Positions 730-6,208 of a stretch of 6,208 nt of DNA are shown in pieces (positions within the stretch are counted from its first letter, which is position 1; each line of letters opens with the position of its first letter). A program made the translations under genes and the position numbers. Location: contig JABXJU010000236.1 in NCBI GenBank assembly GCA_013375405.1, forward strand, positions 1-6,208, read 5' to 3'. Origin of the DNA: Candidatus Helarchaeota archaeon. GTDB lineage: Archaea > Asgardarchaeota > Lokiarchaeia > Helarchaeales > HEL-GB-A. The notes below the pieces were generated by a model. That model had not been told where the DNA came from and searched no databases. It saw only the letters and a list, made by a program, of their open reading frames with translations.

Positions 730-1890
730 TTATAATGTTGTTCGACAGTTTCTCGTAATTTCTTTCTGTTTAGTTTCAAAAACGCAAATCTTGGTAAAAT
801 ATTTGCGAAGTGCGCCCAAGTATTTTTTGTTATAATCCAGAAAGACGACCCTTGATTTCACATCTTTATTTGTGCTTAGCAACTTAAATTTTCCATCTTC
901 ATAGTGATAACGAATAGATTTACCATATGATTTACCGCTAACAATTTCATTGTCGTAATGTGGAGATAATTTCCCGTTTGGTATTGAAATTGAAATTATT
1001 GCTACGGGTTTTATTTCTCGTTCTCTCAACTTTTGAGCAGCTTTTTTGAGCTTATCAATAAATTGACCCATCTTCTTTTTTTCTTTGTCACTTAGATCAA
1101 AACTTGAATTGATTTTATCCGCTAAATCATGAATGTAGTATCCTCTTACAATGTTTTCATATAATACTCTTCGATTCTCTATGTTGGTATTTTTGTTCTT
1201 CTTCTCCAAAAATTTTTCAACATCTTCAGGTTTTAGGTACTTAAACGAGCCTTTGAGTATCTTTAGCATCACAATTTTCAATTTTTCGCCAATTAGTGAT
1301 AAAATCTCCTCATAATCAGTTCTAAACTCATCCATGATATCTTTATAATCTGGATATATGAATAACAACGCATTGGTTATGGTGGTTTTTTTCTTGCCAT
1401 TTATTTCGTATTCAGCAGGTAAAACAGGATAGACCTTGAATGGCTCCTTACCGTCACTCACATAAAAGGAAGATCCCCTTACTCCAAGTGGTAATTTTGC
1501 ATGGTAGCTTGTTTGATTAAAGCCAATTGGTATTGTATTTTTGAAATCTGAGGGATTGTTTAGATTAGCAGTCTTTATATCAATGTGGATGATTACATCT
1601 TCACCATTAAAGCACATGTCTGATGAGTAACCCAATGGCAAAAACTGGTATCCGTGTGTTTCCATCTTCTGTGTAGCGATAAACTCGACGTATTTTTCGA
1701 TTATTTCTGAAAATGGATTATATGCTTTTTTCTCTATACTCGACATAATAACTGGCAATGTTATGAAATCTAAGTAGTTGAGTGAAGAGTCTAACTTGGT
1801 ATTGAAATCATCTATGCACTCATTAAAAACATTGTTGAACTTCAATAACATCTCGTATTCAATTTTTTCTATTTTCGTTTTTTCTTCCAT
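730..1890 (-). CDS. Type II restriction endonuclease, PD-(D/E)xK fold
   Basis: A 386-aa protein encoded 19 bases after the methyltransferase stop on the same strand, so almost certainly co-transcribed with it. The catalytic core is near residues 88-135: an acidic residue after Ser-Ser (D91), a strand, then I-H-I-D104-I-K106-T-A, which fits the D...(D/E)xK metal-binding arrangement of PD-(D/E)xK nucleases. It is followed by a conserved-looking N-P-S-D-F segment and G-F-N-Q-T-S-Y (123-129). The helical, Lys-rich region (about 180-295) and the C-terminal part probably contact DNA. Length is ordinary for a type II enzyme. The protein is expected to cut unmethylated copies of the site that its partner methylates; the site cannot be read from sequence. 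The ribosome binding site is weak (GGGCGA just before the ATG), so translational coupling to the methyltransferase is possible. An ATG ten bases upstream is out of frame. The endonuclease assignment rests on the motif plus the partner gene. Confidence 0.82.
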   Translation of the reverse strand: MEEKTKIEKIEYEMLLKFNNVFNECIDDFNTKLDSSLNYLDFITLPVIMSSIEKKAYNPFSEIIEKYVEFIATQKMETHGYQFLPLGYSSDMCFNGEDVIIHIDIKTANLNNPSDFKNTIPIGFNQTSYHAKLPLGVRGSSFYVSDGKEPFKVYPVLPAEYEINGKKKTTITNALLFIYPDYKDIMDEFRTDYEEILSLIGEKLKIVMLKILKGSFKYLKPEDVEKFLEKKNKNTNIENRRVLYENIVRGYYIHDLADKINSSFDLSDKEKKKMGQFIDKLKKAAQKLREREIKPVAIISISIPNGKLSPHYDNEIVSGKSYGKSIRYHYEDGKFKLLSTNKDVKSRVVFLDYNKKYLGALRKYFTKICVFETKQKEITRNCRTTL

Positions 1891-1909: not shown

Positions 1910-3919
1910 TCATTTTACAATTTCGGTGTATTGTTGTGAAGGAGCAAAGAGCTTTGTTAAATAAGCTATGAGCTCTTCACTATTTATATTTTCAATGAAA
2001 TCTCCTGGGTTCCTACCTTTCACTGAAGCCTTGACGGTTTGAAATTTTAGACCCGATTTTTCTAACATGTCTAAAATGCTGTTTTTTGAACCTAATATTT
2101 CTTTAAGCAGTCTTACATCTTCAGGTATTGGTGTTGAGCCACCAAAATCCTTTCTAAACCAATGACCTACTGTATGTGTATATTCTTTAGGAAGTTTATC
2201 AATTATAGCTTGCAAACTCATTCCTTTGGATTTTCTCAAAATTGTCAAGTATTGTGCGATGGTTGGCTGATCTACTCTATAAAGTCTCATTTTAGTAAAA
2301 TACTCACCGAGCATTAACTTTCTGGCTCCTGGAGAAGCACCCCAATTAATTCTTTTAAGTCCAGAAAACTTGCTAGTTGTAATCTTACTTTTTTCAATTT
2401 GGTCAATTTTGAGAATTTCACCTACAGAATAATAGCTTCCTTCTTCTATGGCATTGAACGTTTTCATTATCTCTTTCGGCTCTTCCACAAGCGGCAACGT
2501 TTTTTTATCCTCCCATAAGTGTCCACCGCAATAGGAACATAGGTTTTCTCCGGCGGGATCATAAGGTTCTTCGAGCTCAGCCCGACATTTTGGGCATCTA
2601 AATATTAATCCTTCCATTAGGATTTCATCTCTTTCGGGGTGGAGCACAACCTCCACGGAAGCATAACCGTCCCATTGAACAACTACAATTTTTGGAAAAC
2701 CATCATCATACGTTTGAAGAACTTCAATTATCCAACCTTTTCTAGTTTCCTTCCCAGAAATGTCTCTCACTTTTGTTCCCACAAATTCTTCTTTAAGCCA
2801 GTCTCTGTTTTCTTCGGTTTTTGGTTTTCTTCTAACACGGTCGAGATAGAATTTGTATGCAACTCTTGTACTGTCCCGTGAGAACATGAATATTGGATAC
2901 CATTTTTTATGATTGGAGATAACCAACATGTTTCGTAAAACATAGCCTTCTTGATAAATGCGTGAAATGTAGTAAAGATCACTTAGAGACCAATTTCTTA
3001 CTCCGTAGAAATAAAGGGCGTCTTCTCTATGAAAACGATAAAATTTTGGGTTAGTTATTCCTCTAAGAGCTGAGAGGAATTCGTCACTATTTTGGGCAAT
3101 AAATATCTCCCCATTCTTGTTTGTGAGTATTTCACAAGGTTCTACATCAGGCAATTTTTCTTCTTCAATGGGTTTCCAATCATAAGAGATATCGCTTACC
3201 TTTTTTGCGCCTCTAATATCTGCTCTTTTTTCAATAATAGGGATAAACTTGTCTCCCTTCTCAATCATAATTGAATAAATCCTCTTTGGGAAAAGTCCGC
3301 TTCTCCTCCTTCTCACAACAACTGCAACAGTTCCAGTTCCTGCGAACAGATCTAATATTCTATCTTCATCCATAATGTTAACTCGGTCTAACATCTCTTC
3401 AACTAGCATTTCGGGAAAAACCGCAGTATGTTTCCATGGAGTTTGCTGTAAAGGTATTTTGACTACCATTTTTCCACTTCTTTTGTATATGTTATGTTCA
3501 CATTTTGAGAAAACTAACACGGGTTCATAGGTGTTAGTAAATCTGTCTTTCACCGGAGAAGGCATATGATTTGTTTTAAACCAGATCATTACATCTTCTA
3601 AACGCCATCCGTCTTTCATCATGTGGTAAGCTAACCTATATGGAATTTGGAGTAAATGCGACTTGCCATATTGACTCTGATATTTATCTCCAACATTTAG
3701 AAAGAAGATTCCATCATCACGTAATTTTTGTCTTAATTTACTAAATACTTTAACCAATCGACCAATGTATGCTTCTGGCATCCGCTCTTGCCCAATTTGC
3801 TCTTCAAAACCATAATCTCTTTGTTTCCAATATGGTGGGGATGTAATAGCCACGGCAATCGAGTTATCGAGCTGCTCTAAACAAGCATATGCATCCCCGT
3901 GAAGAATAATATCTTTCAT
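1910..3919 (-). CDS. Site-specific DNA methyltransferase, SPPY-type (probable N4-cytosine), beta class
   Basis: Transfers methyl from S-adenosylmethionine to a base in the recognition site, protecting host DNA from the downstream endonuclease. The catalytic motif IV is T26-S-P-P-Y-W31 near the N terminus, and the SAM-binding motif I, D190-L-F-A-G-T-G-T197, comes later. This order defines the beta class. S-P-P-Y is typical of N4-cytosine enzymes, although N6-adenine cannot be fully excluded. The methylase core ends near residue 235, leaving about 430 residues beyond it. These include a region of unknown fold (255-435), a four-Cys zinc ribbon (C442/C445, C461/C464) and a helical segment with G-H-W-F-R-K-D (585-591) that resembles DNA-binding modules in other such methylases. 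Target recognition may lie in this extension, because the space between motifs IV and I is filled by the ordinary core. It is the first gene of the operon. Only a weak AAGGG-like ribosome site precedes the ATG. Confidence 0.94.
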   Translation of the reverse strand: MKDIILHGDAYACLEQLDNSIAVAITSPPYWKQRDYGFEEQIGQERMPEAYIGRLVKVFSKLRQKLRDDGIFFLNVGDKYQSQYGKSHLLQIPYRLAYHMMKDGWRLEDVMIWFKTNHMPSPVKDRFTNTYEPVLVFSKCEHNIYKRSGKMVVKIPLQQTPWKHTAVFPEMLVEEMLDRVNIMDEDRILDLFAGTGTVAVVVRRRRSGLFPKRIYSIMIEKGDKFIPIIEKRADIRGAKKVSDISYDWKPIEEEKLPDVEPCEILTNKNGEIFIAQNSDEFLSALRGITNPKFYRFHREDALYFYGVRNWSLSDLYYISRIYQEGYVLRNMLVISNHKKWYPIFMFSRDSTRVAYKFYLDRVRRKPKTEENRDWLKEEFVGTKVRDISGKETRKGWIIEVLQTYDDGFPKIVVVQWDGYASVEVVLHPERDEILMEGLIFRCPKCRAELEEPYDPAGENLCSYCGGHLWEDKKTLPLVEEPKEIMKTFNAIEEGSYYSVGEILKIDQIEKSKITTSKFSGLKRINWGASPGARKLMLGEYFTKMRLYRVDQPTIAQYLTILRKSKGMSLQAIIDKLPKEYTHTVGHWFRKDFGGSTPIPEDVRLLKEILGSKNSILDMLEKSGLKFQTVKASVKGRNPGDFIENINSEELIAYLTKLFAPSQQYTEIVK

Positions 3920-4373: not shown

Positions 4374-4814
4374 CTAATGCGCCCGCATCTGCACATCGTA
4401 CAGAGGGGCTTCTTCCAAAGCATCTATCAGTGCATTAGTTTGCTCTAGAGTCAGCTTGCAGAGGTTCCCATCCCTAAGGAAACCCCACCTTTTGTAAGCC
4501 GCTTTAATTTCGTGTAATTTATCCCAATTCACAAGAACCTGCGCTGGGAATACAAGAGGTCTCACATTTTCCCAAGCTGCTGGATCTATGTTCCACTTCC
4601 CTTGGCTCCTAGCTCGGAAAGAACCAAAAAGCGTTTTGGAATCTATGTTATAAAGAAAAAGCGGCGTGCCTATTCTTATCTGCTCGACCCAACCCCAATA
4701 TTTTCGCGTTAATCCAAAAAGTTTCTTTTGGAAACATTCCGTCTGTGTTCTATTACCGCACAGAAATAGATAACCTTCTACGTTCTGATCTGGCAATTTC
4801 TGCGAACACCTCAA
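4374..4814 (-). CDS. Stand-alone DCD (development and cell death) domain protein, PUA-like
   Basis: Nearly the whole 146-aa protein is one DCD domain. Family hallmarks appear in order: G14-Y-L-F, N21-R-T-Q-T-E-C27, K31-L-F-G-L35, an I-R-I-G-T-P-L-F-L-Y strand (46-55), L62-F-G-S-F, N75-I-D-P-A-A-W81 and F89-P-A-Q-V93. DCD was first described in plant stress and cell-death proteins. It also occurs in prokaryotes, belongs to the PUA-like superfamily with EVE and YTH, and is proposed to bind modified bases. No nuclease or other effector domain is present, so it would act as a reader or adaptor. The longest frame begins at a TTG codon. A second TTG at 4796-4794 (codon 7) sits 10 bases after GAGGTG and may be the true start, giving 140 aa with the domain intact. 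It is divergent from the EVE/NucS gene, sharing a control region. Confidence 0.85.
   Translation of the reverse strand: MRCSQKLPDQNVEGYLFLCGNRTQTECFQKKLFGLTRKYWGWVEQIRIGTPLFLYNIDSKTLFGSFRARSQGKWNIDPAAWENVRPLVFPAQVLVNWDKLHEIKAAYKRWGFLRDGNLCKLTLEQTNALIDALEEAPLYDVQMRAH
4807..4812 (-). promoter_or_regulatory. Internal Shine-Dalgarno suggesting a later DCD start
   Basis: On the minus strand GAGGTG is a good anti-Shine-Dalgarno match. It lies inside the longest reading frame and 10 bases before the TTG at 4796-4794. Together with a TATA-like box about 25 bases upstream of 4813, it favours a short leader and initiation at 4796 rather than at 4814. Confidence 0.45.
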
Positions 4815-5050: not shown

Positions 5051-5926
5051 GTGAATGTGATTGCGTTGTCAAAGGAGTCAAATGTCTTCTTAGTCCAAGT
5101 TAATAAGCCGGGAAGCACCAACATTTTGCAAAATAGGAAGTACGTAAATGAGGATTGGCACTTACGAACTAAAGACAAAGCTCACGGTGAGGTGAAAACT
5201 GGAGATTTACTTCTGGTCTACTTTGCTGGGCAGGCACTAGACTTCCAGAAACAGCTCAGGCAAGCCTACAGAGTTGAAGATGTCCTCAGGGATAATAGGG
5301 AATTTATCCTGAAACATGAACTGGAACTTAATCCTATAACGCTTGACACAATAAGAGAGAAAGTTAAGGAGGGATTCATTTCGGAAGATTTTCTGAAGTG
5401 TGGTCGCATTGGTTTCAATATTTGTAAGATACCCCATTTTGAATATCAAAAAGTTCTTCAATTATCGAGTGGGCTTCCACCAACACCTCCCGTCATAGGT
5501 GCAGAGAGTCTCTTGGAAGATTTCCTTGTAAACAACTGGAGGCCCGCTAAGTTTTTTGGAAAGGAATACGCGAATCTTGGGGTTTTGAAAGATTCAAGTG
5601 GCGACGTCATTGGGCAGCAATATGACACCCGCGGAATCGGGATAATCGACTTGCTTTGCATCGACGGGAAAAAGGGGGAATACTGTGTTATCGAAATAAA
5701 AAAGGGACCGGAATCTGGTGATGATGTAGTTGGGCAATTAACAAGATACATGGGTTGGGTCAAAGCGAATCTTGCTGATGGAAAGAGGGTAAGTGGAATC
5801 ATAGTGACTGGGGGATATGACGAAAAGCTGCGTTACGCTGTAAGCGTCATTCCGAATGTTCACATAGCGGTTTTTGAAATGCAATTCAAGATAAGTCTTG
5901 CATCTACTGTATCATGGAGCGGATGA
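5051..5926 (+). CDS. PUA/EVE-like domain fused to a NucS-type PD-(D/E)xK nuclease
   Basis: A 291-aa two-domain protein. Residues 8-135 look like an EVE/YTH-type PUA-like reader: a V-F-L-V-Q strand, a W36-centred segment, V48-K-T-G-D-L-L-L-V-Y57, and a closing G121-F-N-I strand. Residues 150-285 carry a NucS-type nuclease core: helix E152-x3-E156-D-F-L, then G195-I-G-I-I-D200-L-L, V213-I-E215-I-K217-K, and G228-Q-L-T-R-Y-M-G-W236, followed by strands through F275. The acidic, E-x-K and Q-L-x-R-Y residues all appear intact, so it should cut DNA. The NucS N-terminal half is absent and replaced by the reader-like domain, so mismatch repair by the usual NucS route is unlikely. Modification-dependent restriction is the natural inference. 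Translation seems to begin at GTG, since an ATG two bases upstream reads straight into TGA. It heads a probable operon with the broken gene 7 bases downstream. Confidence 0.86.
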   Translation: MNVIALSKESNVFLVQVNKPGSTNILQNRKYVNEDWHLRTKDKAHGEVKTGDLLLVYFAGQALDFQKQLRQAYRVEDVLRDNREFILKHELELNPITLDTIREKVKEGFISEDFLKCGRIGFNICKIPHFEYQKVLQLSSGLPPTPPVIGAESLLEDFLVNNWRPAKFFGKEYANLGVLKDSSGDVIGQQYDTRGIGIIDLLCIDGKKGEYCVIEIKKGPESGDDVVGQLTRYMGWVKANLADGKRVSGIIVTGGYDEKLRYAVSVIPNVHIAVFEMQFKISLASTVSWSG

Positions 5927-5933
5927 TTAAGGA

Positions 5934-6208
5934 ATGCCTTTTCCCAGAACTTGGAGTGAAGAGTTGATTGCCGAGTGATTGCAGTTGGAGGGGTATTTTG
6001 TTGAGACAGGTGTACCAATTCGTTCTGGTCGAAGAGGTGGACGCAGTGAGGCGGATATAGTTGGTGTAAGGGCAAAAGATGATAGATTCGAGATTTTTCA
6101 CATTGAAGTTGGCAGCCTAGCTGGAAATCCCATATAAAATGCCGAGATGATCAAGGAAAAGTTTTCAAAATAGCGCGAGAATGCCATCAAAGATATTGTA
6201 GAAATAAA
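5934..6208 (+). pseudogene. Decayed nuclease-like gene with three in-frame stops, cut by window end
   Basis: Starting at ATG 5934, one frame keeps protein-like sequence through TGA (5976, codon 15), TAA (6135, codon 68) and TAG (6171, codon 80) to the end of the window. Recognisable pieces are F-P-R-T-W-S-E-E-L near the N terminus, L-E-G-Y-F-V-E-T-G-V-P-I, G-G-R-S-E-A-D41-I-V-G-V and I-F-H-I-E58-V-G-S-L. The pattern of an early Glu, then an Asp on a strand, then Glu on the next strand is like a restriction-endonuclease fold, but the E-x-K lysine is replaced by Gly, so catalysis was perhaps already lost or differs. Each stop is one base from a sense codon (TGG, GAA/AAA, CAG/AAG). The gene starts 7 bases after the EVE/NucS stop and was probably its operon partner. 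The family is not firmly recognised. Confidence 0.68.

Follow-up and report, generated by a model that had tools for sequence, protein, structure and literature searches.

The DNA analysed here (the window) is a 6,208-nucleotide stretch of contig JABXJU010000236.1 from a Candidatus Helarchaeota archaeon (GCA_013375405.1). An open reading frame (ORF) on its forward strand, at positions 5051..5926, encodes 291 amino acids and joins two domains: an N-terminal EVE/YTH-like domain of the PUA superfamily (residues 9-143; 5075..5479) and a NucS/EndoMS-type PD-(D/E)XK nuclease domain (residues 148-279; 5492..5887). The likelier start codon is the TTG at 5066, because the nearest homologue begins about five residues downstream. 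Below we call the N-terminal domain the reader, and the whole the reader-nuclease gene.

Matches of the window protein to named families in Pfam and PADLOC are confined to its C-terminal part. NucS_C (PF01939) matches residues 190-253 with 27.2 bits, above the curated cut-off of 24, and the PADLOC candidate PDC-S02 matches residues 151-281 at 4e-30. When the predicted model was compared with solved structures, EndoMS and NucS were the best matches of the nuclease domain. Searching 5.8 billion proteins brought 65 matches, one of which (P0002) is the window protein itself. Both halves align in 23 relatives (P0003-P0025, with P0024 and P0019 cut at the start), and in the other 41 the part covered is 32-75% of the query and lies mostly in the nuclease half. 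In the alignment of the window protein with these 23 relatives (A1, 24 rows), E152, D200, E215, K217, G228, Q229, R232 and Y233 are invariant. A phmmer search of the PDB with the window protein alone found nothing relevant; the A1 profile matched Pyrococcus abyssi NucS (2vld) at 1.2e-4, with D160, E174 and K176, which we take to be the catalytic residues of that enzyme, aligned with D200 (5648..5650), E215 and K217 (E215-I-K217, 5693..5701; E174-L-K176 in NucS). Conservation adds a predicted catalytic acidic residue, E152 (5504..5506), and a G228-Q-L-T-R-Y233 motif (5732..5749).

We extended the comparison to an alignment of the 24 family sequences, 43 other proteins (P0026-P0068) and 51 loci with a related nuclease, found by scanning genome contigs with two peptide patterns; P0069, whose C-terminus differs, was excluded. 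D200, E215 and K217 are kept in all 24 family sequences, in all 43 other proteins and at 50, 51 and 50 of the 51 loci, the missing cases being gaps. E152 is kept in 24/24, 41/43 (one gap, one G) and 48/51 (three gaps), respectively. An earlier note on this DNA, made from the sequence alone, held that the C-terminal half retains the acidic, E-I-K and G-Q-L-x-R-Y residues of the NucS core, and its reading of the gene would have suffered had homologues consistently proved to carry inactive motifs; the motifs are not degenerate in the relatives, where D200, E215 and K217 are intact apart from gaps. The catalytic residues of NucS/EndoMS are themselves described as conserved, and marked in a figure, in PMC5290159.

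The first 150 residues gave no Pfam, NCBIfam or PHROGs match at E values up to 1. In the predicted model, residues 1-140 match EVE/YTH/ASCH structures of the PUA superfamily, consistent with a PUA-like β-barrel. The same note had proposed that a PUA-like region replaces the usual DNA-binding N-terminal half of NucS; the predicted fold and the alignments agree with this, and no unrelated fold emerged for these residues. A strand further along (123-127), downstream of the core, is present in the model; an extra strand past the core, lying beside strand 1, is the mark of the EVE sub-class (PMC7897488). The reader carries the motif C117-G-R-I-G-F-N-I124 (5399..5422), conserved in nuclease-borne and McrB-borne copies of the domain. 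Its family consensus is NCGRQGFNI, and most McrB-borne copies have ISQQGFNI or LGQQGFNI. Can2 (E 0.045 and weaker) and Cap4 (E 0.44) also appear among the Foldseek matches, and we considered a CARF/SAVED-type signalling nuclease; this was dropped, given the alignment of the N-terminal half with PUA folds.

The strongest new evidence for a type IV-like enzyme comes from sequence comparison, in which the reader recurs in McrB-type proteins. A search with the N-terminal region of P0012 only returned 11 proteins, and one of them, P0069, has the same reader ahead of another kind of C-terminus, which weakly matches a type II endonuclease (6e-6). Whole-genome searches with a profile of the reader alignment (A2), run on overlapping draws, found carriers in 1/398, 2/250, 0/193, 0/256, 0/6 and 2/400 genomes. 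The sole carriers were G293 and G699, both McrB-type and both from the phylum of the genome of locus L017. In G293 (locus L072), the reader lies inside a 1008-residue McrB-type protein (AAA_5, 3.8e-11; solved McrB, 2.5e-25) whose gene adjoins a McrC gene (PF10117, 6.2e-47). In G699 (locus L077), it belongs to a 771-residue protein, which matches AAA_5 at 1.6e-12 and GTPase chains of solved McrB at 1.9e-9 and 3.9e-5. Searching proteins with the reader of L077 then brought up ten, all matched by the A2 profile with domain E values, calculated for this small set, of 9e-28 or better. Nine of the ten have AAA_5 (P0077 from precomputed annotation only). PDB comparisons of five of these nine gave McrB as the best match of each: P0070 (2.4e-17), P0071 (3.2e-18), P0073 (1.1e-17), P0074 (2e-19) and P0077 (4e-55). 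McrB identity was checked in the PDB for these five and L072; that of P0072, P0075, P0078 and P0079 is judged from AAA_5 and motifs.

Across 26 copies of the reader, namely the 14 rows of A2 (13 nuclease-borne, plus P0069) with the ten proteins, L072 and L077 as 12 further copies, L14, Y31, D52, Y57 and I124 are identical in all. There is one departure at each of F13, Q16, G21, W36, G46, F58 and N123, and there are two at S22, G121 and F122. C117 (14/14) and R119 (13/14) are found in A2, whereas the 12 further copies have I or L, and Q, at these positions. The conserved aromatics Y31, W36, Y57, F58 and F122 are only candidate pocket residues.

Several side features of these loci were noted. 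On the other side of the L072 McrB-type gene lie ORFs that by eye resemble HsdR, HsdS and HsdM. The McrB-type frame itself (L072:5724-8750, reverse strand) ends about 20 residues past its AAA_5 match, which stops at profile position 96 of 139, and the gene is possibly broken. P0076 combines the reader (residues 511-653) with a T4 gp19-like tail-tube domain at its end (PF06841, 1.7e-41); its 20 member sequences stand on one contig entry, and it may be a genuine fusion or else a chimera made in assembly. P0070-P0074, P0076 and L077 have in common a mutually similar, DCD-like N-terminal stretch of about 150 residues before the reader. The likeness to DCD, an EVE-like domain, is weak (best 3e-4); such proteins may carry two EVE-like readers in tandem.

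Modularity is seen in the nuclease as well. None of the 51 ORFs from the pattern-found loci matched the reader profile. With five loci set aside for truncated ORFs, the N-terminal regions of the remaining 46 fell into BLAST clusters of 17, 17, 10, 1 and 1. MrcB_N (PF12102), which we take to be the former DUF3578 and the methylcytosine-binding domain of Escherichia coli McrB, was found in 11 of the 55 relatives scanned (the 46 loci and nine hand-picked proteins, P0042 having been chosen for its MrcB_N annotation), so that the same nuclease is paired with a McrB-type domain. The E. coli domain goes by the name ADAM in PMC11090510. Fourteen N-terminal pieces were compared with the McrB-type set: those of P0058, P0060, P0061 and P0066 have a region in common with it (7e-7 to 0.01), and the other ten had no match to it at 0.01. 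A scan of viral contigs with the two peptide patterns found no relative.

We conclude that the window protein is probably a single-chain, modification-dependent (type IV-like) restriction endonuclease that works independently of nucleoside triphosphates. A type IV system unites a modified-base reader with a nuclease, and both folds are predicted here. The earlier note had seen a type IV-like restriction architecture in this gene, and the occurrence of the reader in McrB-type proteins, together with that of the same nuclease beside MrcB_N, lends sequence support to it. By its fold and its sharing with McrB-type proteins, the reader would be expected to bind a modified base. In VcaM4I, an EVE domain flips 5-methylcytosine or 5-hydroxymethylcytosine into a pocket (PMC7897488). 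On this analogy, we propose that the reader would bind invading, probably viral, DNA and flip a modified base into its pocket, and that the nuclease domain would then cut the DNA close by, with the help of K217 and of a divalent metal that E152, D200 and E215 would hold. Q120 and F122 may be the equivalents of Q128 and Y130 of VcaM4I, a suggestion drawn only from the end-points of the alignment (142 in the model, 149 in the chain) and from a Q-x-aromatic spacing; the window protein and P0003-P0006, the four relatives nearest to it, have I instead of Q at position 120.

A number of results weigh against this interpretation. Pfam EVE (PF01878) did not match the window protein at E values up to 1, and scored the homologue P0068 at E 0.16 (12.4 bits versus a cut-off of 23); in P0076 (residues 21-59) and P0079 (686-827), its matches fall outside the shared reader. 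An hhalign comparison of A2 with a three-sequence EVE alignment was in register and not significant (probability 1.6), so kinship with EVE rests on structure. In EVE proteins, a long loop supplies an aromatic wall of the pocket (W82 in VcaM4I, Y82 in 2eve); here the corresponding loop looks short, so that no residue is an obvious equivalent. The predicted template modelling score of the model is just 0.52, so that it does not fix the relative placement of the domains. Finally, no McrC match was obtained for the gene that follows the McrB-type gene in L077.

Upstream in the window, on the reverse strand, lie a type II DNA methyltransferase gene (1910..3919; N6_N4_Mtase with a TSPPYW motif, Pfam 2.2e-31; PADLOC MTase_II, 1e-242) and an adjoining type II restriction endonuclease gene (730..1890; PADLOC REase_II, 6.5e-108). 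The TSPPYW motif is common in N4-methylcytosine methyltransferases. Type IV systems are expected to lack a dedicated protective methyltransferase; here a methyltransferase is encoded nearby, beside its own endonuclease. Being encoded nearby, the reader-nuclease presumably tolerates the methyltransferase's mark, which its reader would ignore. Between the type II pair and the reader-nuclease gene are an Elf1-like zinc-ribbon gene and, divergent from the latter, a gene for a stand-alone DCD protein (4374..4814, reverse strand; Dev_Cell_Death, 1e-25). The presence of the Elf1-like and DCD genes suggests archaeal DNA. The DCD-like stretch that precedes the reader in several McrB-type carriers led us to consider a partnership between the DCD gene and the reader-nuclease gene. 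Compared with three archaeal DCD proteins that stand alone, the window DCD protein gives 42-44% and 7e-30 to 1e-32, against 3e-4 at best for the McrB-borne stretches; it is closer to the former, and a partnership is therefore just a lead. Among 201 genomes of one class (the class of G001), 29 hold relatives of the DCD protein at E 1e-5 or better. At the three such loci read, neighbours by eye were NDP kinase-, MCM- and inositol-phosphate synthase-like, which suggests a housekeeping role. Elsewhere in the window, a stop-interrupted forward frame at 5928-6208 looks by eye like the remnant of a PD-(D/E)XK gene (GGRSEADIVGV ... FEIFHIEVGS) and has no PADLOC match, and a small forward ORF at 315-506 has CxxC pairs and weak zinc-ribbon-like matches only. 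The window contains no tRNA and no RNA family above its gathering score.

This neighbourhood raises the possibility that the protein is an accessory of the type II pair, cutting DNA with a competing methylation pattern or policing loss of the system. In favour of such a role, the distance from the methyltransferase gene to the start of the reader-nuclease gene is about 1.1 kb; the latter lies on the opposite strand, with the Elf1-like and DCD genes intervening, and we think this account very improbable. Little more can be said for a DNA-repair enzyme, a relative of NucS/EndoMS with an EVE-like domain for detecting damaged or mismatched bases in the DNA of the cell itself. That EndoMS and NucS head the solved matches of the nuclease domain is in its favour. 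However, the protein falls far below the cut-off of the full-length NucS equivalog model NF002876 (21.6 versus 252 bits), and so outside the NucS/EndoMS orthologues. The N-terminal half of NucS is replaced, the architecture is rare in the material searched (absent from all 51 pattern-found loci) and the reader is one that McrB-type proteins also carry, all of which make a repair role very unlikely.

We give equally little credence to an RNA-targeting or cell-suicide effector, in which the YTH-like domain would read modified RNA and the activated nuclease would cut RNA or the host chromosome. NucS-type nucleases are known to act on DNA, and DNA rather than RNA is the substrate proposed here. 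Moreover, the McrB-type carriers P0072, P0075, P0077, P0078, P0079 and L077 have NxxD motifs, as opposed to the NxD form of CoCoNuTs; P0070, P0071, P0073 and P0074 showed no clear motif with the pattern used.

If the protein is indeed a type IV-like endonuclease, then a nuclease best known from mismatch repair is also the cutting half of small antiviral enzymes whose readers are shared with McrBC. Such enzymes would offer a simple, single-gene handle on the ligands of McrB readers, which are hard to study in the large McrBC machines, and possibly new reagents for mapping modified bases. A bolder and distinctly tentative extension is that minimal type IV enzymes built on NucS-type nucleases make up a class so far unrecognised, with a single nuclease chassis that has repeatedly captured McrB readers (MrcB_N, EVE/YTH-like and PF28530-type) and has no need of a GTPase motor. 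In that case, the reader of this branch, with its short pocket loop and QGFNI, might read a modification other than those of characterised EVE/YTH enzymes, possibly one made by archaeal viruses.

Several known systems are close in design. One is that of the modification-dependent EVE-HNH endonucleases, VcaM4I among them (PMC7897488), though their nuclease is HNH rather than NucS-type PD-(D/E)XK, and the W82 pocket loop described there is without an evident counterpart. Fusions of EVE with PD-(D/E)XK were predicted to be type IV enzymes in 2020 (Bell et al., PMC7641849); the general architecture is that of the window protein, and modification dependence was thus already predicted. The term 'NucS' does not occur in the main text of that paper, and no paper pairing 'NucS' with 'EVE domain' or with 'McrB' came up in a search outside which most subscription journals and supplements fell. 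NucS_C was reported in 2017 to occur with a variety of other domains (PMC5290159). PDC-S02 is a computational candidate whose name occurs in four of the papers searched, and the likeness to it is limited to the nuclease part. The mismatch endonuclease NucS/EndoMS (2vld, 5gke; PMC5290159) has a similar C-terminal catalytic domain with similar catalytic residues, but its own N-terminal DNA-binding half where the window protein has an EVE/YTH-like domain. The EVE/YTH-McrB proteins of McrBC type IV systems (EVE-McrB proteins being described in PMC7641849; see also PMC11090510) share the reader module; they combine it with an AAA+ GTPase and depend on McrC as a separate nuclease, whereas the window protein has a nuclease of its own.
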